Positions 16,672-36,812 of a DNA stretch of 36,812 bases are shown here, piece by piece. The notes beneath the pieces were generated by a model that was not told where the DNA came from, made no database searches, and saw only the letters and a list, made by a program, of their open reading frames with translations. Position 1 is the stretch's first letter, and every line of letters starts with the position of its first letter. The DNA comes from a virus: the IMG/VR virus record IMGVR_UViG_3300031239_000007, positions 1-36,812 of that record. One strand, written 5' to 3'. The translations under genes and the position numbers were made by a program.

Positions 16672-16687
16672 TGGAGCCTCTCTTTCG

Positions 16688-16756
16688 TAGCGGGGACGTG
16701 GGTCGAACACGTTCGTGCCGGCGTATGAGACCGGATTGCCTCCGAGGCTCCCCGCT
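16688..16756 (-). tRNA. tRNA-Met(CAU)-like gene with minimal D arm
   Basis: Read on the minus strand from 16756. The acceptor AGCGGGG pairs perfectly with CCCCGCT (16689-16695). The anticodon stem CCGGT/GCCGG (16730-16734 with 16718-16722, one G-U) encloses the loop CTCATAC with anticodon CAU, U33 and A37. The variable region is CACGA. The T stem ACGTG/CACGT encloses the canonical TTCGACC. The discriminator base is A16688 and CCA is not encoded. Only 15 nt lie between the acceptor and the anticodon stem, so the D arm is reduced to GCCT-CGG-AGGC (or GCC-TCGGA-GGC), which still keeps a GG pair. A CAU tRNA could be Met or lysidine-modified Ile; the AGCGGGG acceptor is Met-like. Confidence 0.7.
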
Positions 16757-21815: not shown

Positions 21816-21833
21816 TGTTGACGTGCCCGATTA
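21816..21833 (-). promoter_or_regulatory. Start-associated 18-nt element, copy 5
   Basis: Plus-strand TGTTGACGTGCCCGATTA. It lies 8 nt before the start at 21807 and includes the TAA stop of the large terminase gene. CAGGG lies in the spacer. Confidence 0.7.
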
Positions 21834-23261
21834 CCGGTTGGCTTCGCCCACGAGGCTTTCGTAGTCGGCGGCGTACTCCAGGTCCATGGCTTCCTGAATC
21901 TCTCGCCTCAGGCGAATCTGGCGCGCCTCGTGAGGGGTTGGATCAGGGGTCGGCGGGGCCGCGTAGGACTCCACTGCCCAGAGCGCCGCACGAAGGGCAT
22001 CCGCCAGGTTCTGTTTGAGTTTCCCCTTGGCCATGACCGACTTCCCTGTCGCCCTGGCCCTCGGGTCCCACATGGCGCACTTCATGACCGTCTCGAGCTT
22101 CGAGCCACGGCGTATCCAAAGCTTCTTGGCCGCCAGCATCCGGTTGATGCGCATGACCTCGTTCTCGGGGTCCTTCGAGGGGACCGCCTTGAAGCTGATC
22201 CGCTTGTCGGCGTCCAGGATGATCTTCATGCCGTCTTTTCGAGCGGACCCATAATCGTAAAAGGCATCCAACGGGTTCCAGCGGGTGACCATGGGGGTCA
22301 CGCGGTCGCCGGTGTCATCCCATGATCCGCCCTCACCCTTGGCGGTTTCGTCCTCGTCGGCAACCCAGGCACACCCGTCGCCGTTGCCGTGTCCAACCAC
22401 GATGAGCGCCTCCGCGTCGAGCGTGCCGCCGGGGTCGAGTCCGATGCTGTACCACTTGCACTTGGGGGCCTCGCCGTCGAACCCGTTGGCGTCTGGCCAG
22501 TACCTGAACACGCGGAGCGAGTTGTCCAAGGTTGGCCACATGCCCTTCCAGTGTCGCTGGAATTCGGGGCTGTCCTCTCCGCCGAGGTCGATGAGCGCCT
22601 TGGCCCGTTGTTCCTCACGGGATGCCGGCGGAAGGTACGGATTGCGGTTCATGTGTCCGCGGTGCTGGCTCCAGGCTGCTGACTTGGTGCCTTCGGTGAT
22701 GTCCCACCAGCCACCGATCCCGCTCAAATATCCCGGGATGCCCATGGCCAGGATGCGGCCGGCGTAGCGCATGAGTCCCGGTCGAACCATCTTGATGATG
22801 CCCTCGAGGTCGGGCGCGTCTTGGGCTTCGTCGATGACCAAAAGCGCGGGTTTTAAGCCTTGTAATTTTTTGATTTCGTTGGCGCGCCCCGAGAACACGT
22901 AACCCTTCGAGCCGTTGTCGAGGTGCAACTCACCTTCGACAACTCGCCCCGGCAGCCCGTTCTCGTCGATGAGCCGTTGCCAGTCCTCCAGGATGATCTT
23001 GTTCGCGTGCTCGATGTCGAAGTCGAGGAACACGACGTTCACGCCAGGTTGCTGAATGGCGACGTCGGCGGTCAGGACCGCGGCGAGGATGGACTTGCCG
23101 AGTTGCCGTGTCCCGAGGAACGTGCGGTCGGGGGTGACATCGTCGAACACCGCTTGCTGGTCGGGATAGAGCAATGCCCGCGCGTTCCACGACTTCGCGG
23201 ATCGGCGGGCTGCCTCGCGTTTCAGGCTGGCGAGTAACTTGCGGGCCGCCGCCTGGCTCAC
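21831..23261 (-). CDS. terL: Terminase large subunit
   Basis: 476 residues from a GTG at 23261. The ATPase part has Walker A GTRQLGKS (residues 50-57) and Walker B LLVIDEAQ (140-147, acidic pair D144-E145). The nuclease part begins with SIGLDPGGT (Asp276) and continues with FYDYGSARKDG. Domain order and size match phage large terminases, which drive DNA into the prohead with ATP and cut the concatemer. A GTGA overlap couples it to the upstream small-subunit candidate. The packaging type (headful or cohesive) cannot be read from the sequence. Confidence 0.9.
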   Translation of the reverse strand: MSQAAARKLLASLKREAARRSAKSWNARALLYPDQQAVFDDVTPDRTFLGTRQLGKSILAAVLTADVAIQQPGVNVVFLDFDIEHANKIILEDWQRLIDENGLPGRVVEGELHLDNGSKGYVFSGRANEIKKLQGLKPALLVIDEAQDAPDLEGIIKMVRPGLMRYAGRILAMGIPGYLSGIGGWWDITEGTKSAAWSQHRGHMNRNPYLPPASREEQRAKALIDLGGEDSPEFQRHWKGMWPTLDNSLRVFRYWPDANGFDGEAPKCKWYSIGLDPGGTLDAEALIVVGHGNGDGCAWVADEDETAKGEGGSWDDTGDRVTPMVTRWNPLDAFYDYGSARKDGMKIILDADKRISFKAVPSKDPENEVMRINRMLAAKKLWIRRGSKLETVMKCAMWDPRARATGKSVMAKGKLKQNLADALRAALWAVESYAAPPTPDPTPHEARQIRLRREIQEAMDLEYAADYESLVGEANR

Positions 23262-26431: not shown

Positions 26432-26700
26432 GCGGTCACCGGGCGCTGCTGCTTCATGCCGATGGACTTCGTGCGCACCTGGTTGCGGGCGCGGCACTCG
26501 GGGCACGTGACCTTGCCGCTGGCGTAGTGGAACGGTACAGGCTCCGCCAAGGTGAACGACGTGCGCCTCCAGCCACACCGGGCGACGTCGCTGTCAGGGT
26601 TCACCCGGGAGTGAATGACCACCGGGTCGGCGTCCTTACGCACCCGAAGGCACACGGGGCGCTCTATGTTCCCCAGTGAGCTCACCATCGAGTAACTCAC
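26428..26700 (-). CDS. Zinc-ribbon-like small protein
   Basis: 90 residues from a GTG at 26700 (VSYSMVSSLGNIERPVCLRV), GTGA-coupled to the gene above. Cysteines occur at PVCLRV, ARCGW and CPEC (a C-x2-C knuckle), separated by a beta-like stretch, with HSR and HY histidines available. This fits a zinc ribbon that binds nucleic acid or a protein. The C-terminus is basic (RNQVRTKSIGMKQQ). An alternative start is the ATG five codons in. Function unknown. Confidence 0.5.
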   Translation of the reverse strand: MSYSMVSSLGNIERPVCLRVRKDADPVVIHSRVNPDSDVARCGWRRTSFTLAEPVPFHYASGKVTCPECRARNQVRTKSIGMKQQRPVTA

Positions 26701-26975
26701 TTGGCCACTCCCGAGCGCAGGCAAGCGTTCAGGGCCTTGACGCGGGAGATGTGGGCATCGAGCCGCGCGTCACTCTGCGCCTGCTCCAAGATGCGAGCCG
26801 CACGGGCCGCGCCGGCCGCCTTGGCCTTGGCGCAGTCGCACACAGGCTGTGGCAGCCCGACGGTGACCTCGAGTTTGTGCCAGTCGCGCATCCGCACACC
26901 CGGGAGGCGAAACGCCAGCCACAGAGCGACGAGGGAGCTCCCGAATAGGAGCGACATGCCCACGGCGGCGATCAT
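26697..26975 (-). CDS. N-terminally anchored protein, inner-spanin-like
   Basis: 92 residues. An N-terminal membrane segment (AVGMSLLFGSSLVALWLAFR) is followed by a soluble domain with VCDC, then helical heptads (AARAARILEQAQSDARLDAH) and a C-terminal cysteine. This topology (uncleaved anchor, then charged helical periplasmic domain) is that of Rz-type inner spanins. No nested or following outer-spanin lipoprotein is visible in this cluster, so the call is tentative. It could also be a membrane protein of the early region. ATGA coupling links it to the gene upstream. Confidence 0.4.
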   Translation of the reverse strand: MIAAVGMSLLFGSSLVALWLAFRLPGVRMRDWHKLEVTVGLPQPVCDCAKAKAAGAARAARILEQAQSDARLDAHISRVKALNACLRSGVAK

Positions 26976-27136
26976 CGGCGCGCCTCCGCCAGAACCGCGC
27001 CCTGGAACTCGAAGAGCCCCTGGGAGACGCGGTCGCCGGCGGCGGCGAGCTGGTCGAGGAGGAACTGTCGCCCCTCGCGCTCGATATGGGTGGCAGGGAC
27101 GGGCGGGGGAGCGGGCGGTCGGGTCGTGGGGTTCAT
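26972..27136 (-). CDS. First small gene of the leftward operon
   Basis: 54 residues from the ATG at 27136 with GGAAGG upstream. A Pro-rich N-terminus (MNPTTRPPAPPPVPATHIER) leads to one helix (FLLDQLAAAGDRVSQGLFEF). No membrane segment. It is the first gene after the divergent control region at 27137-27265, so its promoter probably drives the whole small-gene chain and perhaps the late operon. Function unknown. Confidence 0.5.
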   Translation of the reverse strand: MNPTTRPPAPPPVPATHIEREGRQFLLDQLAAAGDRVSQGLFEFQGAVLAEARR

Positions 27137-27265
27137 GGGGTGCCTTCCGTTGGGGTTGCTACGAAACTTGCTACTCACCCACTATGAGGCATGCCACGGG
27201 CGCAAAGTGCCCAACAACCTGTCGATTTCGGACCCCTTCTCCCTGGAAGATGCTACTGTTAATGC
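27137..27265. promoter_or_regulatory. Divergent control region with 17-bp element and GCTAC motifs
   Basis: 129 bp between the leftward and rightward genes. It holds one copy of GCAAAGTGCCCAACAAC (27202-27218), oriented toward the leftward gene. It also has two direct TTGCTAC repeats 12 bp apart (27156-27162, 27168-27174) and AGATGCTACTGT at 27248-27259, shared with the 12.2-kb region. This is a good candidate for the early promoter-operator switch. Confidence 0.55.
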
Positions 27266-28336
27266 ATGGGAACGAAGCAGACCGCACAGACTCTCGGCTC
27301 AAGGATCGACGAGGTTCTTGGCCACGGACTCTCTGACCAGGACTCCTCGGTCATGAAGACCACCCGCGACCTACCTGACGCCAAGGCCAAGCTTCTGGCG
27401 ATGCGCGACCTCTGCCACCGCCTGGACGACCCGGCGGAGGCCTGGGGCGGGGAGCTGCGCTCCATGAGAGAGCGGCCTGGGATTGAGGGAGTAGGTAAGA
27501 AGGGCGGTCGCCCCGTGCCAGACCACTCCATGGTCCAAGCGCGCGTCCTCGCCTCCTACGAGGCCGCTGGGGACGCATGGATTGAGGCATGGAGGCTAGA
27601 TGTCGTGGCACTGCGGGCGTCGTCGCCGTTCCCAAATGACAAGAGGTTCACGCCGCCGCGCCGGATCATCGAGTCTCGCAAGGATGTTTGCGGGTCGCGC
27701 AAGGACGCCTGCGACGAGCGCGAGAACACCCCGCTTCCGGATGCCACGGCGCTCGCCCATGCTGGCTACGTCGTCGCTCCACGCAAGGACGCGAAGATTG
27801 CCGCCGCAGCGCAGATTGCTGGGTGGGCCTGCGGCTACATCGTCACGCCGAAAAGCGCACGGAACGCCGTCGCTAATGGCTCTGTGGCACTCGTGGCGGG
27901 CCGCCAGGGCGCGTTCATCAAGCGCTGGGAGTCGGGCGTCCTGACCTGGGCTCGCTCATTCAACGCCGCCTCCGCCATCTACGGAGACTCGAAGGCGCTC
28001 GCCGCAGTTGGGGAATGCCCTGGGCTATCGCCGATGTTCATTGGCAAGGCGCTCGGGGCCGAACTTCTGGACCTGCCGCTAGACGGCGTCGAGGTCGAGG
28101 TCGAGCCGATGACCGTGGACGACAGGCTCCCACGGGAGGCTCAAGACGTCCTGGCCAGGCTGGACAGCGCTTCGCAGAGCCTGCACGGCGTGTCGCAGCG
28201 CCTGGGGGCCTTGTCGACCGCGGTCGCGATCCTCAACGGCGACGCGCACAATCCACACGGACGGGTGCTGTCCGCGGAGGAGTGCGCAATCATCGACGAG
28301 GGCCGGGCCGAGATGGCCGCCGCCGGCATCAAATAG
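27266..28336 (+). CDS. Orphan early-region protein, unknown
   Basis: 356 residues (MGTKQTAQTLGSRIDEVLGH). The N-terminal 130 residues are helical and charged. A basic cysteine-containing stretch repeats SRKD (IIESRKDVCGSRKDACDERE). The centre looks globular (GYIVTPKSARNAVANGSVAL, GRQGAFIKRWESGVLTWARS) and the C-terminus is a helical region with LARLDSASQSLHGVSQRLGA. No known domain is recognised. The start lacks a clear ribosome site, so it may be translated from a very short leader. It is the only gene on its transcript, with its own control region before it and a strong terminator after it, which suggests a dedicated regulatory role. Confidence 0.6.
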   Translation: MGTKQTAQTLGSRIDEVLGHGLSDQDSSVMKTTRDLPDAKAKLLAMRDLCHRLDDPAEAWGGELRSMRERPGIEGVGKKGGRPVPDHSMVQARVLASYEAAGDAWIEAWRLDVVALRASSPFPNDKRFTPPRRIIESRKDVCGSRKDACDERENTPLPDATALAHAGYVVAPRKDAKIAAAAQIAGWACGYIVTPKSARNAVANGSVALVAGRQGAFIKRWESGVLTWARSFNAASAIYGDSKALAAVGECPGLSPMFIGKALGAELLDLPLDGVEVEVEPMTVDDRLPREAQDVLARLDSASQSLHGVSQRLGALSTAVAILNGDAHNPHGRVLSAEECAIIDEGRAEMAAAGIK

Positions 28337-28351
28337 CACTCGACCGCCACC

Positions 28352-28389
28352 ACAGGGCCCCCGCGACCACACGGTTTCGGGGGCCCTGT
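28352..28389 (+). terminator. Strong hairpin terminator after the orphan gene
   Basis: Perfect 12-bp stem ACAGGGCCCCCG/CGGGGGCCCTGT (28352-28363 with 28378-28389) and a 14-nt loop, 15 nt after the stop codon. T-containing but not pure T sequence follows (TGCGTCGCG). It would also block leftward transcripts coming from the primase side. Confidence 0.75.
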
Positions 28390-28405
28390 TGCGTCGCGCA
28401 ATTGT

Positions 28406-28742
28406 TGTTACAAGCGTAACAGCCCGGCTGCCGGCACAACGTGTTCAGTGGTAACGCGGGTGGTCGGCAAAGTTTACCGGGGCAAAACGCCCCAGTAGTG
28501 TCGCGCCTCGGGGAGTCGCCGGTAGGCTTCAGGGGGCCGTTCTCTTCCTCAACGTTGGAATCATTGGGGAATACGCCAAAGGGAGCGTCCGAACAGCCCG
28601 GATGCCTACATTGCCCACACGCTCTGTAACCTCAGATGGGGTTACAGGTGCCCTTTTCCAGGAAACCCCCTATAGAAAAACCCCCCTTTTTCTAGTAGAG
28701 AAGGTTGTAAAAAGGCCGTTTGTAACCTCATATTGGGTTACA
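28406..28742. other. Candidate replication origin
   Basis: Part of the 485-bp gene-free stretch 28337-28821 between convergent genes. Two 22-bp dyads, TGTAACC-N8-GGTTACA, lie at 28625-28646 and 28721-28742. Exactly midway is the perfect hairpin TAGAAAAA-C6-TTTTTCTA (28673-28694): the dyad centres are 28635.5 and 28731.5 and the hairpin centre is 28683.5. A further palindrome TGTTAC-AAGC-GTAACA is at 28406-28421 and GGGGC-AAAAC-GCCCC at 28479-28493. A-tracts are rare elsewhere in this GC-rich genome. It lies beside the primase-helicase gene, as in P4-type replicons. The rest of the gap holds no gene I can support. Confidence 0.6.
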
Positions 28743-28769
28743 CCCTGGCGTCCTCCGGTCCCCAGACGC

Positions 28770-28797
28770 AAAAAAGCCACCCGGGTTAGGGGTGGCT
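28770..28797 (-). terminator. Rho-independent terminator of the primase-helicase gene
   Basis: Leftward hairpin AGCCACCC/GGGTGGCT (28775-28782 with 28790-28797), followed in the leftward RNA by six U (28770-28775). It lies 25 nt after the stop codon and ends the leftward primase transcript before the origin-like region. Confidence 0.85.
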
Positions 28798-28821
28798 CCA
28801 GTGCTACTGCCTGGCGTTCGG

Positions 28822-31209
28822 CTACGTATTGAGGAGCGCGAGGCCCCGGTAGCCGCTGACGACCTTGCCGTCGATGCGCCGCTGCTGCTCCTCGAACCCA
28901 GGGACGAGCCGGCGCAGCTCCTTACCGAACCGCTTGCTGGTCATGGGCTTTTCCATGCCGGCGTTGCACCACTGGTGATAGGCGCCCGTGAGGTCCCTGC
29001 CTGCAATCCACAGGTCCGCGCCCATCTTGCACGTCTGCCCCAGGAAGACGCTGATGGTGTCCTCGCCGGTCCTGTACCCTGCGCCGGCATTCTTGACCGC
29101 CTGGGGCTTCTCCAGGCCCCGCTCACGCCATGCCTGGTAGCCGCGCACCGACCACGCCAGGATGCCCGGGAGTTCCTCCATCAACTTGGCCTTGAGGCCG
29201 GGGTCGCGCTGCCCTTCGGTGAACCGCGCCTCGAACGGGATCAGGTGGAGGCGATCCCAGATGGACTCAGAGGTATCGCGGATGCCCGGGAGGTGGTTCG
29301 TCGAGAGCCAGATTTTGCACGTCGGGTGAAAGCTGATCTCCGCCTCGTACAGGGCGCGCGCCACGACTGGCTCGCCGCCGGTCAACTCCTTGACCAGCCG
29401 CTCGTCCAGGCGCATTCCCTGGGCGCCCTCGGATGCCGTCGCGAGCCGGGAGCCGCGAAGCCGCACGAGGTCTGAGCGGGGGCCAGCCCCGCCCACGTTC
29501 TTCTGCTCGGCCAAGGTCTCCATGGAGATGGGGAGCCGGTAGTCTCCCATCATGGCCCCGATTGTCTCGATGAACACCGATTTCCCGTTGGCGCCGACGC
29601 CGTAGAGAAAGAAAAACACCCGCTCGGTCATGTCGCCGCTGAGGCTGTACCCGACCGCGCGCTGGACGTATTCGATCATCTCCTCGTCTTCGAGGAAGAC
29701 CTCACGCATGAACTGGTCCCACCGCGGGCAGGTTGCGTTCGGGTCGAAGATAACGGGGCTCATGCGCGTGGACAGGTCCGCGGGGAGGCTGGCGCGAAGC
29801 GTGCCGGTCTCAAGGTCGATGGTCCCGTTGGCCACGGTGAGCTCGTTGTGGTGCTGGTCGAAGTCCTCGACCCGAGCCCGCACCGTCTCGGTCTCCTTGG
29901 CGTTGTCGATCATGGTCTTGATGCGACCGCCGCCCCTGGTCTGCACGGCGTGCTTGACGGCCGCATTGGCATCCCTCAGGCGCGCCCTGGCCGCCGCCCT
30001 GGCCTCTCCGTCATCCTCTGCACCAGGACGCCCGCGAAACGCTTCCATGGCGGTCCTAGCCGCGTTCAGCTCGTCCTCTGCGCCCTGGAGCATCCGGTCA
30101 GCGACGGACCACGCCGCCCGGGTGACCGCCCCGGTGGTGTCGGGTGCCCACCGATGCCCATCCCACGACAGCCACCCGAGCCCGAGCGCGTAGCGGAGGG
30201 TGTTCCGGAATTCTGAGGCCAAGGCCAGACCGTTGCCGATATCCGACGGGTCGTCAAGCACCAGCGGGGTGAGGTCGGGGTCCGCCGGTGGCGATGGGTC
30301 GGGGGTATTGAGTACCGCTGCGAATGCTTGAGCCACGGAGTCCTTTCCTTCGAGACGCGCCATGTCGTTGAAGTCGGTATCCTTCGGGCCGCGCTCGCCA
30401 GTGAAGGCGGGGACCACGAGTTTGCAGTTCAGCGCCCGAGCCGCCGTGGTGGCATCCGTGAGGCCCGGGTTGCCGTCGGTGGCGTGGTCGTCATCCGCGG
30501 CGATCACGAGCCGGGACTGGGGATACCGCGCCGCCAGTGCCTCGCCCACGGGCAGGAGGTTGTTGCGCCCGAATGCGCACGCCACGGGGAGTCCCGTGAC
30601 CTCGTGGATCGTCGCCCCAGTTGCCACCCCCTCAGTGATCACGATGACCGGGCCTGGGGTGCTGATGGGGAAGAACCGCCCCTTGGGATGAGAGCCCTTC
30701 TCGAACCGCTTGGTAGGGGTCGAGTCGAGCTGCTGGACGCCGTGGAGGTTGCCGTCCACGTCCAGGGCCGCCGCGTAGAGCTTGCCGGCGTAGACGCGCG
30801 TTCCGTGTGTCCCGACGCCCTTGCGGGTGAGATATTCGTGGGGGGCCTCGTTGCCCGAGTTCCACAGGGCGGTGAAGAGGTCCTTGGACCTGGCGTCCTC
30901 CCGCTTCCGATCCTCCTCCGCCACCCTCCGCTCCTCCTTCCGACGGGCCTCCTCGGCCACGTCCACGAACGACTCGCGCTTGGTCGAGCCCGAGAACTTC
31001 CACTTCACGGGGTCGTTGTCGCGCCCCATGTTCTGGACCCAGCCGGCCGGGTGACCGTCGAGATGGACCTGATACCTCCCGTCCTTGCCGTTGGGCTTCG
31101 TGTCCGTGCCGCAGTAGGACACGCCGGGGCCGGTCTTGAGGGAGGGAGGGAGCATCAGTCCGTGCTCGGAGGCCAGAGAGCGGAATTCGGTTTCGGCTTC
31201 GTTCACCAT
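28822..31209 (-). CDS. Primase-helicase (P4-alpha / D5 type)
   Basis: 795 residues from the ATG at 31209, with GAGAGG-type leader sequence upstream; a longer frame to 31308 would run through the control region. The N-terminal 140 residues are a charged region including a coiled coil (EEARRKEERRVAEEDRKRED). A toprim-like primase part follows near residue 187 (VIVITEGVATGATI, then LVIAADDDHA, then DTDFNDMA). The C-terminal half is a D5-N plus SF3 helicase: HNELTVANGTIDLETG, Walker A YGVGANGKSVF (near residues 536-545), then KIWLSTNHLPGI and SIWDRLHLIPFEARF. It synthesises primers and unwinds DNA at the origin, probably recognising the nearby dyads. Confidence 0.85.
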   Translation of the reverse strand: MVNEAETEFRSLASEHGLMLPPSLKTGPGVSYCGTDTKPNGKDGRYQVHLDGHPAGWVQNMGRDNDPVKWKFSGSTKRESFVDVAEEARRKEERRVAEEDRKREDARSKDLFTALWNSGNEAPHEYLTRKGVGTHGTRVYAGKLYAAALDVDGNLHGVQQLDSTPTKRFEKGSHPKGRFFPISTPGPVIVITEGVATGATIHEVTGLPVACAFGRNNLLPVGEALAARYPQSRLVIAADDDHATDGNPGLTDATTAARALNCKLVVPAFTGERGPKDTDFNDMARLEGKDSVAQAFAAVLNTPDPSPPADPDLTPLVLDDPSDIGNGLALASEFRNTLRYALGLGWLSWDGHRWAPDTTGAVTRAAWSVADRMLQGAEDELNAARTAMEAFRGRPGAEDDGEARAAARARLRDANAAVKHAVQTRGGGRIKTMIDNAKETETVRARVEDFDQHHNELTVANGTIDLETGTLRASLPADLSTRMSPVIFDPNATCPRWDQFMREVFLEDEEMIEYVQRAVGYSLSGDMTERVFFFLYGVGANGKSVFIETIGAMMGDYRLPISMETLAEQKNVGGAGPRSDLVRLRGSRLATASEGAQGMRLDERLVKELTGGEPVVARALYEAEISFHPTCKIWLSTNHLPGIRDTSESIWDRLHLIPFEARFTEGQRDPGLKAKLMEELPGILAWSVRGYQAWRERGLEKPQAVKNAGAGYRTGEDTISVFLGQTCKMGADLWIAGRDLTGAYHQWCNAGMEKPMTSKRFGKELRRLVPGFEEQQRRIDGKVVSGYRGLALLNT

Positions 31210-31340: not shown

Positions 31341-31538
31341 ATGGAAACTGCAACGCTTCGAGATGCACCGACGAAGGTTCTCTTCTCCGTTCCCGATGCC
31401 GCCTCCCAGCTTTCGGTGACGGCGCGCCATCTGTGGAACCTGGTCGCCAAGGGGGAGATCCGAACCGTCTCCCTGGGTAGGCGCCGCCTGATTCCCGCAT
31501 CCGAACTGGCGCGCATCGCCGCCGGGGAGAGCCGCTAA
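31341..31538 (+). CDS. Excisionase-like HTH protein
   Basis: 65 residues from the ATG at 31341; longer frames would cross the control region. VLFSVPDAASQLSVTARHLW followed by NLVAKGEIRTVSLGRRRLIP is the winged-helix pattern of the Xis/AlpA/HTH-17 family: start of helix at the PDAAS turn, recognition helix at T-x-R-H-L-W, and the G-R-R-R-L-I-P wing. It is the first gene of the operon that ends in integrase, which fits a recombination-direction factor. It could also be an early activator. Its stop overlaps the next start (TAATG). Confidence 0.75.
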   Translation: METATLRDAPTKVLFSVPDAASQLSVTARHLWNLVAKGEIRTVSLGRRRLIPASELARIAAGESR

Positions 31539-33857: not shown

Positions 33858-33942
33858 TCCGCTCGCCGGGGCCGCCCTGTTCCTGATCGGCGGGCTGGTC
33901 GGGGTGCTGTTGGCCTATCTGGCGTGGTTCGAGCGTGAATAG
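33847..33942 (+). CDS. 31-residue membrane microprotein
   Basis: 31 residues from the ATG at 33847, overlapping the kinase stop by 11 nt and the integrase GTG by 8 nt. One membrane segment fills it (LAGAALFLIGGLVGVLLAYL), flanked by MGCDP and AWFERE. The double overlap in an otherwise gap-free operon and the clean hydrophobic segment argue that it is translated. Function unknown; possibilities are a small inhibitor of a host membrane process or an integrase-coupling leader peptide. Confidence 0.5.
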   Translation: MGCDPLAGAALFLIGGLVGVLLAYLAWFERE

Positions 33943-35128
33943 CCTCGTCGAAGTGCTGCGGCGCGCGCTTGCGGAGGCCGAGAGGTCTGTGCAGACTGCC
34001 GGCGCGGCCAGCGGTCAGGGCCTTGAAAGCGGAATAGGAGACGACGGGGGCCTCCACGAGGAGGACCCTATGTATTCATGGATCGGAAAGACGCCTTACC
34101 GCCACCATGCCCGGTGGTTGGTCTGGGCGAAGGACATCACGGGCAAGCGGCAATCGAGGCTGTTCGACAGCGAGGTCGATGCCGCGGATTGGATCGCGAG
34201 GAACCGACGCTTCATCGTCGCCGACGGGCGGCTGATGGGGGTCGCCGTTACGGAATATCTGGCGTTCCTCGGGACGCGGAACAAAGCGCCGCTGAGGCCG
34301 CAATCGGTGGTGACACTCGGATACCGGCTTCGAGCCGTCGCCAGGTGGGACGAACTGGCGCCTGTGGGGCGCTTCTCGTGGTCGAAGGCATGGGCAGCCG
34401 CAACCCAGGAAACGGCCCGTGCAACGCAAACTGGGATGCTTGCGGCGCTCCAGGGGTTCGTGTCGTGGCTGGGCCTGCCCTCGAAGGTCCTGGCGGGGTG
34501 CGAGGTGAGCGGGGACGTGGTTCGAGGGAAACGCCAGTTGAGGATTGACGACGCGCGCAAGTTCATCGGCGCCGCGCTGGCCGATGGTTCCCCTTTGGCG
34601 TTGGCCGCCGCCACGCAGGCATTCTGCGGCCTGCGCCCCGGGGAGGTGGTCGAGCTTCAGGTCCGAGATGTCGACGACCGTGGGAGGTTGCTGTGGGTGG
34701 CCGGCACGAAGACGCGCGCCGCGAAGCGCGAGGTGCCGGTGGACCCGGCGTTCGTGCCACACCTGGTCCGCGCCGCCGCGGGCCGCGAGCCGGGGGAGCG
34801 CCTGTTCCCGTGGGAGGGGGAGGCCTCGAAGGACGCCCACAAGGCACGGAAGGACGCCTTGAGCCGCAAGGTGCGCGACCTGTGCCGAGCCGCCGGGGTG
34901 GAGAGGGTCGTGCCGCACTCGCTGCGCGGCCTGAACGCCACGTTGAGAGTTACCGGGGGAGCCTCGGACGCCAGCATCACCCGGGCGCTCGGGCACCTGA
35001 GCATCGAGACCACCCGCCGGCACTACATCGCCCCGGGCGTTGCGGAGAAGTCCGCTCAAATGTCCGCTCACGGGCGACTGACCGAGCCCCGGGAGTTACC
35101 ACAAGTTACCGAGGTCGAAGGCGCTTGA
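33935..35128 (+). CDS. int: Tyrosine integrase
   Basis: 397 residues from a GTG at 33935. The catalytic residues of tyrosine recombinases are present: Arg234 (FCGLRPGEV), Lys259 (AGTKTRAAKRE), His328-x-x-Arg331 (PHSLRG), His354 (LGHLS) and the nucleophile Tyr364 (RRHYIAPG). The N-terminal part carries an arm- or core-binding region (TGKRQSRLFDSEVDAADWIA and MGVAVTEYLAFLG). Two GTTACC repeats that look like arm-type binding sites overlap its last codons. It is the last gene of the operon that starts with the Xis-like gene, and the attachment site follows directly. Confidence 0.9.
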   Translation: MNSLVEVLRRALAEAERSVQTAGAASGQGLESGIGDDGGLHEEDPMYSWIGKTPYRHHARWLVWAKDITGKRQSRLFDSEVDAADWIARNRRFIVADGRLMGVAVTEYLAFLGTRNKAPLRPQSVVTLGYRLRAVARWDELAPVGRFSWSKAWAAATQETARATQTGMLAALQGFVSWLGLPSKVLAGCEVSGDVVRGKRQLRIDDARKFIGAALADGSPLALAAATQAFCGLRPGEVVELQVRDVDDRGRLLWVAGTKTRAAKREVPVDPAFVPHLVRAAAGREPGERLFPWEGEASKDAHKARKDALSRKVRDLCRAAGVERVVPHSLRGLNATLRVTGGASDASITRALGHLSIETTRRHYIAPGVAEKSAQMSAHGRLTEPRELPQVTEVEGA

Positions 35129-35277
35129 CAGGCGCGAGGCATTCCGCTTAGAAGTCGCGTGCTTACGAACGCGAGGATGGCGAAACTGGTAGACGCACTA
35201 GCTTGAGGTAGTTGGGACCGGCCGCAACTCGGCCACGGACGCGGACTTAGAGAAACTCGAAGGTTACCGGAGTTACC
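35095..35277. other. attP: core with paired arm-type sites
   Basis: GTTACC occurs twice on each side of the core: 35095-35100 and 35105-35110 (10-bp spacing) to the left, 35263-35268 and 35272-35277 (9-bp spacing) to the right. One-helical-turn spacing is typical of arm-type integrase sites. Between them lies the tRNA-Leu-like core. The arrangement int, P arm, core, P' arm is intact, so the sequence is a free or circular phage attachment site (or a junction of tandem prophages), not a single prophage end. Confidence 0.7.
35171..35209 (+). other. tRNA-Leu(GAG) 5' half at the attachment core
   Basis: The 39 bases match the 5' half of a bacterial tRNA-Leu: acceptor GCGAGGA, D arm GCG-AAACTGGTAGA-CGC, then CTAGC and loop TTGAGGT with anticodon GAG. 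Beyond 35209 the sequence diverges: the anticodon stem cannot close, and no T arm or 3' acceptor (TCCTCGC) follows. A small hairpin GGCCG-CAACT-CGGCC lies at 35220-35234. It is best read as the crossover core shared with a host tRNA gene. Confidence 0.7.
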
Positions 35278-35311
35278 GAAACCGGCCCCCGTCGTCCCTG
35301 TTCCGGTTTGT

Positions 35312-36042: not shown

Positions 36043-36398
36043 GCGACGGTCCCGGCCGGGAGCGCCCCGAGCGTCACGAGGTAGGATTCGGCCGCCTTGT
36101 TGCGCGCGCTGATGCCGCCCCCGACGTAGGCGGTGACGAGGTCGGTGAACCCCGTGGGGGTTGTGAACCCGAAGACCTCGAGGATGTCGCCGTAGCCGAG
36201 CGGGGTGCCCTTGGCGCGCAGCCCCTCGCTTGACCCGTCGCGGATGCCCAGCGTGAAGAGCTGCGGCCACGGGAGCGCCCCCGCACCCTGGGCGGAAACC
36301 GTCACGAGCGCCGTGTTCGTGTCGCCGTTGAGGTCGACCACGACCACGCGCATCTTGGCGATATTCGGGACCGGAACGTTGACCGTGAGATTCAACAT
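36039..36398 (-). CDS. Conserved phage protein of unknown function (right copy)
   Basis: 119 residues, close homologue of the 118-residue protein at 1417-1773. The first 35 residues differ at two positions or so, while the middle and C-terminal third differ more (for example YVGGGISARNKAAESYL against STGGIGARNKAAESFL). The start lies ten bases below the tail-fibre stop, as in the left copy. If the genome is the 34,625-bp circle, this copy is the one linked to attP and integrase. Confidence 0.6.
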   Translation of the reverse strand: MLNLTVNVPVPNIAKMRVVVVDLNGDTNTALVTVSAQGAGALPWPQLFTLGIRDGSSEGLRAKGTPLGYGDILEVFGFTTPTGFTDLVTAYVGGGISARNKAAESYLVTLGALPAGTVA

Positions 36399-36408
36399 GG
36401 ACGCTCCT

Positions 36409-36812
36409 TTAGTTTTGGCAGCGCCACGCGGTGCCGTCGTAGATGAAGTCCCAAGCGCCGTTGGTGGTGGTGGTCAGGGCGGTACCACTGCGGAAGGTGA
36501 TGTTCCCGGCGTTGGTCACCTGAGAGGCGGTGCCGGTTCCGAAGATGAGCGTCACCCGCGAACCGGCCTGCCAGTTGGTCGTGGTGATCGTCTGGATGAC
36601 CGTGGTACCGGTGATCGGGAAGACGTTGCCGTCGTTGCCGAGGGTGATGGTAGTGGCGCTGGCGACTGCCGCGCCCTGTTTGAGTTGGTGGCGAGTGTTG
36701 TGGATCAGGCCGTTGGCGTTGACGTGGAGCTGCTGAGTACCAGCCGCCGACCACCCGAGGTCATCGGTAGCAGCCTGGAACAGGCCGGATCCGACGTTGG
36801 CATTGAAGTAGA
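36409..36812 (-). CDS. Tail fibre C-terminus (partial, right copy)
   Basis: The stop is at 36409-36411 and the gene runs off the window. Its 404 bases match 1784-2187 with no net length difference. The 127 bases nearest the window edge are identical. The differences lie in the last 90 codons, around the segment before NDGNVFPITGT and in the strand region near the C-terminus. In the circular reading this is the tip that belongs to the fibre whose N-terminal part lies at 2188-3307. Confidence 0.8.
   Translation of the reverse strand, partial: YFNANVGSGLFQAATDDLGWSAAGTQQLHVNANGLIHNTRHQLKQGAAVASATTITLGNDGNVFPITGTTVIQTITTTNWQAGSRVTLIFGTGTASQVTNAGNITFRSGTALTTTTNGAWDFIYDGTAWRCQN
36686..36812. repeat. 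Right copy of exact 127-bp repeat at window end
   Basis: Identical base for base to 2061-2187. It lies at the very end of the window, and the distance between copies is 34,625 bp. It marks the point where the sequence re-enters itself. Confidence 0.95.

Follow-up and report, generated by a model that had tools for sequence, protein, structure and literature searches.

The 118 bases at positions 28625-28742 of the viral DNA analysed here, just 3' of the gene for a P4-family primase-helicase, are with a probability of roughly 0.83 the replication origin of a temperate phage, and the adjoining primase-helicase is its initiator. The window, that is, the whole stretch of 36,812 bases of record IMGVR_UViG_3300031239_000007, is GC-rich and encodes a terminase, a capsid-like protein, the P4-family primase, an integrase, and an excisionase; the virus was therefore classified as a temperate tailed phage. 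The origin reading is the most likely one and rests on the position of the element, its symmetry, the identity of its neighbour, and a class-wide pattern; neither conservation of the dyads nor GC skew contributes to it. The element itself is best read as a palindromic variant of the rep-ori kind found in SaPI and PICI elements. Table 1 lists the features.

Table 1. Features of the window (upper lines) and of three phage loci (last line).
Feature	Position	Strand	Remark
Terminase gene	21831-23261		
Orphan protein, 356 aa	27266-28336	+	end faces the element
Gene-free gap	28337-28821	strandless	between two converging gene ends; contains the whole element
GC-rich hairpin after the + strand gene	28352-28389	+	12-bp stem 28352-28363/28378-28389, by eye; possible terminator without T run
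Weaker outlying dyad TGTTAC-N4-GTAACA	28406-28421	strandless	related half-sites; possible accessory site
Distal dyad TGTAACC-N8-GGTTACA	28625-28646	strandless	putative site bound by the C-terminal domain of the primase-helicase
CCTTTT	28652-28657	strandless	mirrored by AAAAGG on axis 28683.5
Central A/T hairpin TAGAAAAA-CCCCCC-TTTTTCTA	28673-28694	strandless	exact, on axis 28683.5; candidate melting core
AAAAGG	28710-28715	strandless	mirror of CCTTTT
Proximal dyad TGTAACC-N8-GGTTACA	28721-28742	strandless	outer edge 79 bp past the final base of the primase gene
Likely intrinsic terminator of the primase gene	28770-28797	-	8-bp stem 28775-28797, then T6; read from sequence
P4-family Toprim primase-helicase, 828 aa	28822-31308	-	putative initiator; Pfam D5_N, Toprim_3, DUF5906; PHROG 6088
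C-terminal winged-helix domain, last 94 residues	28825-29106	-	predicted fold; putative reader of the dyads
Tyrosine integrase gene	33935-35128		
Symmetric repeats 3' of primase, unrelated motifs	L136 4330-4616; L138 4330-4663; L135 4048-4340		phages PSA, FHC15313, T25

An earlier note on this DNA had pointed to two TGTAACC dyads with centres 96 bp apart and a hairpin at their exact midpoint, and both observations hold. The dyads match without mismatch (0 mismatches each) and have identical 7-bp arms; their 8-bp spacers, TCAGATGG and TCATATTG, differ at 2 positions, and the copies are 91% identical overall. The exact hairpin is centred at 28683.5, which is also the midpoint between the dyads. 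Around this axis 35 of 59 pairs are mirrored, the most of any axis in the window (the runner-up has 32), and when the 485-bp gap was dinucleotide-shuffled 1000 times, no shuffle reached this number (maximum 32) or contained a twin dyad with 7-bp arms. The dyad has just 2 matches in the window when up to 3 mismatches are allowed, a count of loose matches (two or more) that was also seen in 4 of 100 shuffles. Elsewhere in the window there is no twin dyad with 6- or 7-bp arms, no rival repeat cluster of origin type, and no strong tandem array. The 50 bp around the axis are 56% AT compared with 34% across the 3 kb that precede the primase stop, from which the axis is 138 bp away. When the element was folded as DNA the two dyads formed separate hairpins, and the stretch was modestly special (z -2.22).

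The gap that holds the element is gene-free, as had been claimed, and at 485 bp and GC 0.59 it is both the longest and the lowest in GC among the six gaps of more than 100 bp. It contains 7 of the window's 35 GTAAC/GTTAC 5-mers and 5 of its 12 AAAAA/TTTTT 5-mers. Going 3' from the primase stop, a terminator-like hairpin with T6 comes first and the 118-bp element follows. The proposal of terminators on both sides stands on the primase side, where the stem and T6 are clear; the opposite side has a GC hairpin without a T run. A terminator consensus scan gave no excess (2 found versus 2.2 in shuffles). The orphan protein encoded across the gap has no family match, no solved relative, and no relative in IMG/VR.

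The neighbouring enzyme is indeed of the P4 type. It matches TIGR01613 (primase_Cterm) at 273.1 bits (curated cut-off 108.7), Pfam Toprim_3 at 44.9 bits (27.2) and D5_N at 88.2 bits (22.4), as well as DUF5906, and PHROG 6088 with an E value of 4.2e-122. The primase domain matched is Toprim, and an archaeo-eukaryotic prim/pol domain is absent from the protein. Its closest solved sequence relative is 7ola, 'Structure of Primase-Helicase in SaPI5'. The last 94 residues are predicted to form a winged helix (pLDDT 81.6), and this model matches the origin-binding domain of phage P4 (1ka8) with Z 8.3 and rmsd 2.5 over 75 aligned residues, the third-ranked hit; the match concerns the fold only, and a Z near 8 may reflect a common arrangement. 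By sequence, the C-terminus is homologous to the C-terminal domains of the relatives discussed below (E 1.5e-12 to locus L147). The alpha protein of phage P4 consists of a Toprim primase, a helicase, and a C-terminal origin-binding winged helix, a set of parts that the window protein shares, its winged helix by prediction. P4 origins carry short directional repeats, whereas the window has palindromic dyads.

In the fold comparison the C-terminal model was closest to two eukaryotic DNA-binding domains of RFX proteins (Z 12.0 and 11.0), ahead of the P4 domain. The RFX site is given as GTNRCC(0-3N)RGYAAC (PMC5752003), and the window's half-site GTAACC fits GTNRCC. The RFX X-box idea was nevertheless dropped and counts as no evidence, because the RFX pattern is not enriched in the gaps of the class (ratio 0.95). 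The core GTRAC is about twofold enriched in these gaps; two control words gave 0.54 and 0.60.

The earlier note had proposed to look for the dyads and their spacing in relatives, and the dyads could not be traced there. Searches of IMG/VR with double-dyad and extended-dyad patterns gave 0 matches. Exact single dyads were found in at least 119 stretches, which by our own estimate is about the chance level for 14 fixed bases; some of these have a second dyad (up to 4 mismatches) within 300 bp, and there was no pattern among the matches listed. Searches with the portal, a metallophosphoesterase-like protein, and a neighbouring ORF yielded one close relative, L127 (79% in the portal), an 11.5-kb contig without the dyad, and L128 at 35%; the neighbouring ORF had no relative. 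Primase relatives in bacterial genomes numbered three, all distant. The IMG/VR searches thus brought up no close relative of the dyads, and we therefore surveyed the conservation of place rather than of motif. The query was an alignment of ten P4-family primases, and the best 80 of 592 relatives were taken together with 16 earlier loci. These 96 loci formed 53 clusters at 80% identity, or 54 with the window, of which 52 were testable; locus L129, whose C-terminal part failed to align, was left out. For each locus, the 400 bp following the primase stop were scored for long-range inverted symmetry against windows of the same size from the same locus.

In viral contigs and phages, the place just 3' of a P4-family primase gene is a hot spot of symmetric repeats. 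Within this sample (best 80 of 592 relatives plus 16 loci), the 400 bp after the stop take first rank within their locus in 28 of the 52 clusters, with the window counted among the 52; 2.3 such clusters are expected. The symmetry percentile peaks at the primase stop (mean 0.81 compared with about 0.5 elsewhere). With the comparison restricted to noncoding-rich windows, a score of at least 12 was reached in 16/40 downstream windows and 2/203 controls (p 2.6e-7, from windows that overlap). Of 97 downstream pieces, 19 contain twin dyads with 6-bp arms, and these come from 4 clusters of which the window is one; among control windows the count is 5 of 1974. The 14 best cases share a layout of repeats, AT-rich core, and inverted repeats, with a motif that differs by lineage. 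In the other 20 clusters whose symmetric element is clear, the axis is 55-242 bp away from the stop (median 116.5), and in 18 of these 20 the core is AT-richer than the 3 kb before the stop. The remaining 24 of 52 clusters do not rank top of their own locus; they include the actinophage loci L132, L133, and L139, where the primase lies in a packed operon, and the window itself, which scored 8 (z 1.48, with 11 of 90 control windows equally high). The low score of the window is due to its 7-bp arms, since the metric favours long arms. Most relatives also have more sites per side than the window's single dyad.

Among these phages, Listeria phages PSA and FHC15313 each have twin dyads and an inner inverted pair on one axis, with midpoints at 125/125.5 and 121.5/122. 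Their layout comes close to that of the window. The gaps agree with the window's in lying 3' of a P4-family primase and in having an arm-sharing dyad pair placed symmetrically about an AT-rich core; they differ in an unrelated motif, in dyads 211-213 bp apart, in the inner inverted pair, and in a next gene that is co-oriented with the primase. In the PSA cluster, where 16 of 17 members were assigned to motif classes (L148 was left out), the primases of different motif classes differ by 40% in the last 40 alignment columns (721-760) compared with 9% within classes, and by 22% compared with 10% in columns 681-720; in other columns the two values are close. The same relation holds over 160 within-cluster pairs from 9 clusters with a body divergence of at most 10%: the similarity of the gap falls with the divergence of the C-terminus (rho -0.79) far more than with that of the body (rho -0.28). 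The p values (Spearman and Mann-Whitney) are descriptive, since within-cluster pairs are not independent. Between L177 and L211 the helicase bodies diverge by 1% and the last 90 columns by 51%, a pattern that recurs in other clusters. DNA identity was profiled for 7 hand-picked pairs. In three of them (L175/L179, L177/L211, and L136/L138) the diverged stretch of DNA reaches about 300 bp to either side of the stop, beyond which identity returns to 0.94-0.99; in the other four the recovery is partial or comes later.

This joint change is the trace that would be expected if reader domain and site had been exchanged together. The C-terminal domain of about 90 residues probably reads the motif in the gap, because the two vary jointly among close relatives whose enzymes are otherwise near-identical; part of the joint change could be linkage, since the motif and the C-terminal codons adjoin on the DNA. 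The earlier note's proposal that the origin is read by the adjacent primase-helicase gains support from the identity of the enzyme and the predicted winged helix at its C-terminus, the hot spot of the class, the joint change of motif and C-terminus, and the literature on SaPI and PICI origins. As a separate observation, in the pairs L177/L211, L194/L203, and L145/L155 the helicase bodies are near-identical, the last 90 residues are strongly diverged, and the gap sequences are unrelated; these appear to be swaps of reader domain plus origin.

SaPI and PICI origins are described as directly following the 3' end of the rep or pri-rep gene (PMC7581432, PMC6092414). SaPI Rep helicases are reported to recognise the directly downstream origin via their C-terminal domain, and the isolated C-terminal domain of Cch2, a relative of SaPI Rep, to bind such an origin site (PMC7581432). 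As far as these accounts describe it, the rep-ori arrangement shares with the window a Primase_Cterm (TIGR01613) helicase, a place directly downstream of the initiator gene (the window's candidate origin starts 79 bp beyond the gene), repeats flanking an AT-richer core (for the window, the 50-bp core mentioned above), and a reader domain at the C-terminus, which is putative in the window. The window departs from it in having one palindromic dyad per side in place of iteron sets, a hairpin core with a C6 loop, a tailed phage as host element, and a gap between converging genes. A further comparison is with plasmid pRN1, whose 100-bp stem-loop, 54 bp downstream of the replication gene, is reported to be necessary and sufficient alongside the replication operon; phage BIP-1 is said there to have a similar stem-loop (PMC4234260). 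By this account, in both pRN1 and the window the replication gene is followed by a small terminator and then by an inverted element of about 100 nt, which lies 54 bp and 79 bp from the gene, respectively; the pRN1 protein has an archaeo-eukaryotic primase and the window protein a Toprim primase. Streptococcus thermophilus phage Sfi21 is described as having a 302-bp noncoding origin that is independent and activated by infection (PMC6356513); by this description it is, like the window element, a noncoding phage element. The PLE satellite is described with a RepA_N origin (PMC7145576).

If the element is the origin, the winged-helix C-terminus of the primase-helicase would bind the GTAACC/GGTTAC half-sites of both dyads, and helicase rings would assemble on each side, facing each other across the A/T hairpin. 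The A/T core would then melt or extrude, the helicases would load, the Toprim domain would prime, and two forks would depart in opposite directions. A broader idea, offered tentatively and with considerable doubt, is that in phages with P4-family primases the last ~90 primase codons and the adjoining origin form an exchangeable cassette, which is swapped as a unit so that related phages use origins that do not cross-react. The window might then hold a twofold-symmetric form of the cassette, in which two reader domains would sit face to face on each dyad and the A/T hairpin with its C6 loop would open by extrusion and not by simple melting. In a literature search of partial coverage we recognised no paper describing that tailed phages swap the primase C-terminus jointly with the origin.

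Several other readings of the element were weighed. The dyads might be operators of a phage repressor or regulator, set 96 bp apart on one helix face so that the bound dimers form a loop. Perfect dyads of 22 bp are of typical operator size, and 96 bp is by our own arithmetic close to nine helical turns. However, both flanking genes end at the gap, so that the site is not at a gene start; a scan for sigma-70-like promoters, the one type covered, found none in 26500-30500; the window has no further copy of the dyad; and the survey ties such elements to the 3' end of the primase. We consider operators improbable. The absence of a sigma-70-like promoter in that region also speaks against a structured RNA or a bidirectional terminator made in the gap, which we regard as very unlikely. 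A 171-base RNA fold does score better than all of 200 shuffles (z -3.14), but palindromic protein sites give the same folding signal, the window has no Rfam match, the stems are AT-rich and without T runs, and the primase is already served by a separate terminator.

Attachment, packaging, and partition sites can all hold inverted repeats, and the phage encodes a tyrosine integrase and an excisionase. The integrase gene, however, is more than 5 kb away with a tRNA-like sequence of its own beside it, the terminase gene is likewise located elsewhere (Table 1), and no partition-family match was found among the window proteins searched; we give any of these sites a very small chance. Finally, the place after the primase could be incidental, with the dyads binding something unrelated and the origin elsewhere. 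The modest score of the window element on the class metric would fit this, as would the cumulative GC skew of the circular genome, a check proposed in the earlier note: it gave no support to the origin, its minimum falling elsewhere (33,888 raw; 31,575 after correction for gene strand), and its range is no larger than in block shuffles (p 0.31), so the minimum is not significant and the skew is uninformative. Against an incidental position stands that no other part of the window has a competing repeat cluster, a strong tandem array, or a twin dyad, and we give this reading a slim chance. An origin served by the adjoining primase-helicase thus remains the preferred reading.

Origins are unannotated in most phage genomes. 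The survey suggests a rule for phages with P4-family primases, namely to seek the origin in the gap 3' of the primase. A plan similar to rep-ori after the primase is now seen in tailed phages PSA, FHC15313, and T25 and in many viral contigs. Since reader domain and motif change as a pair, origin specificity and the incompatibility of phages and satellites can be tested by domain swaps.

A few further observations concern the genome as a whole. An imperfect 556-bp repeat (1632-2187 versus 36257-36812) reaches the end of the contig and looks like an assembly join between two strain variants, and the genome is therefore probably a 34,625-bp circle with a variable segment. The circle of this size named in the earlier note depends on this imperfect repeat, in which only the last 127 bp are exact. 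At 31341-31538 the window encodes a 65-aa excisionase-type DNA-binding protein (TIGR01764, 33.1 bits; cut-off 28.8), divergent from the primase. Beside the integrase gene, a tRNA-Leu-like sequence at 35129-35311, read by eye and not called by ARAGORN, is a candidate attP. ARAGORN called a tRNA-Met on the minus strand at 16687-16756, amid the structural genes.
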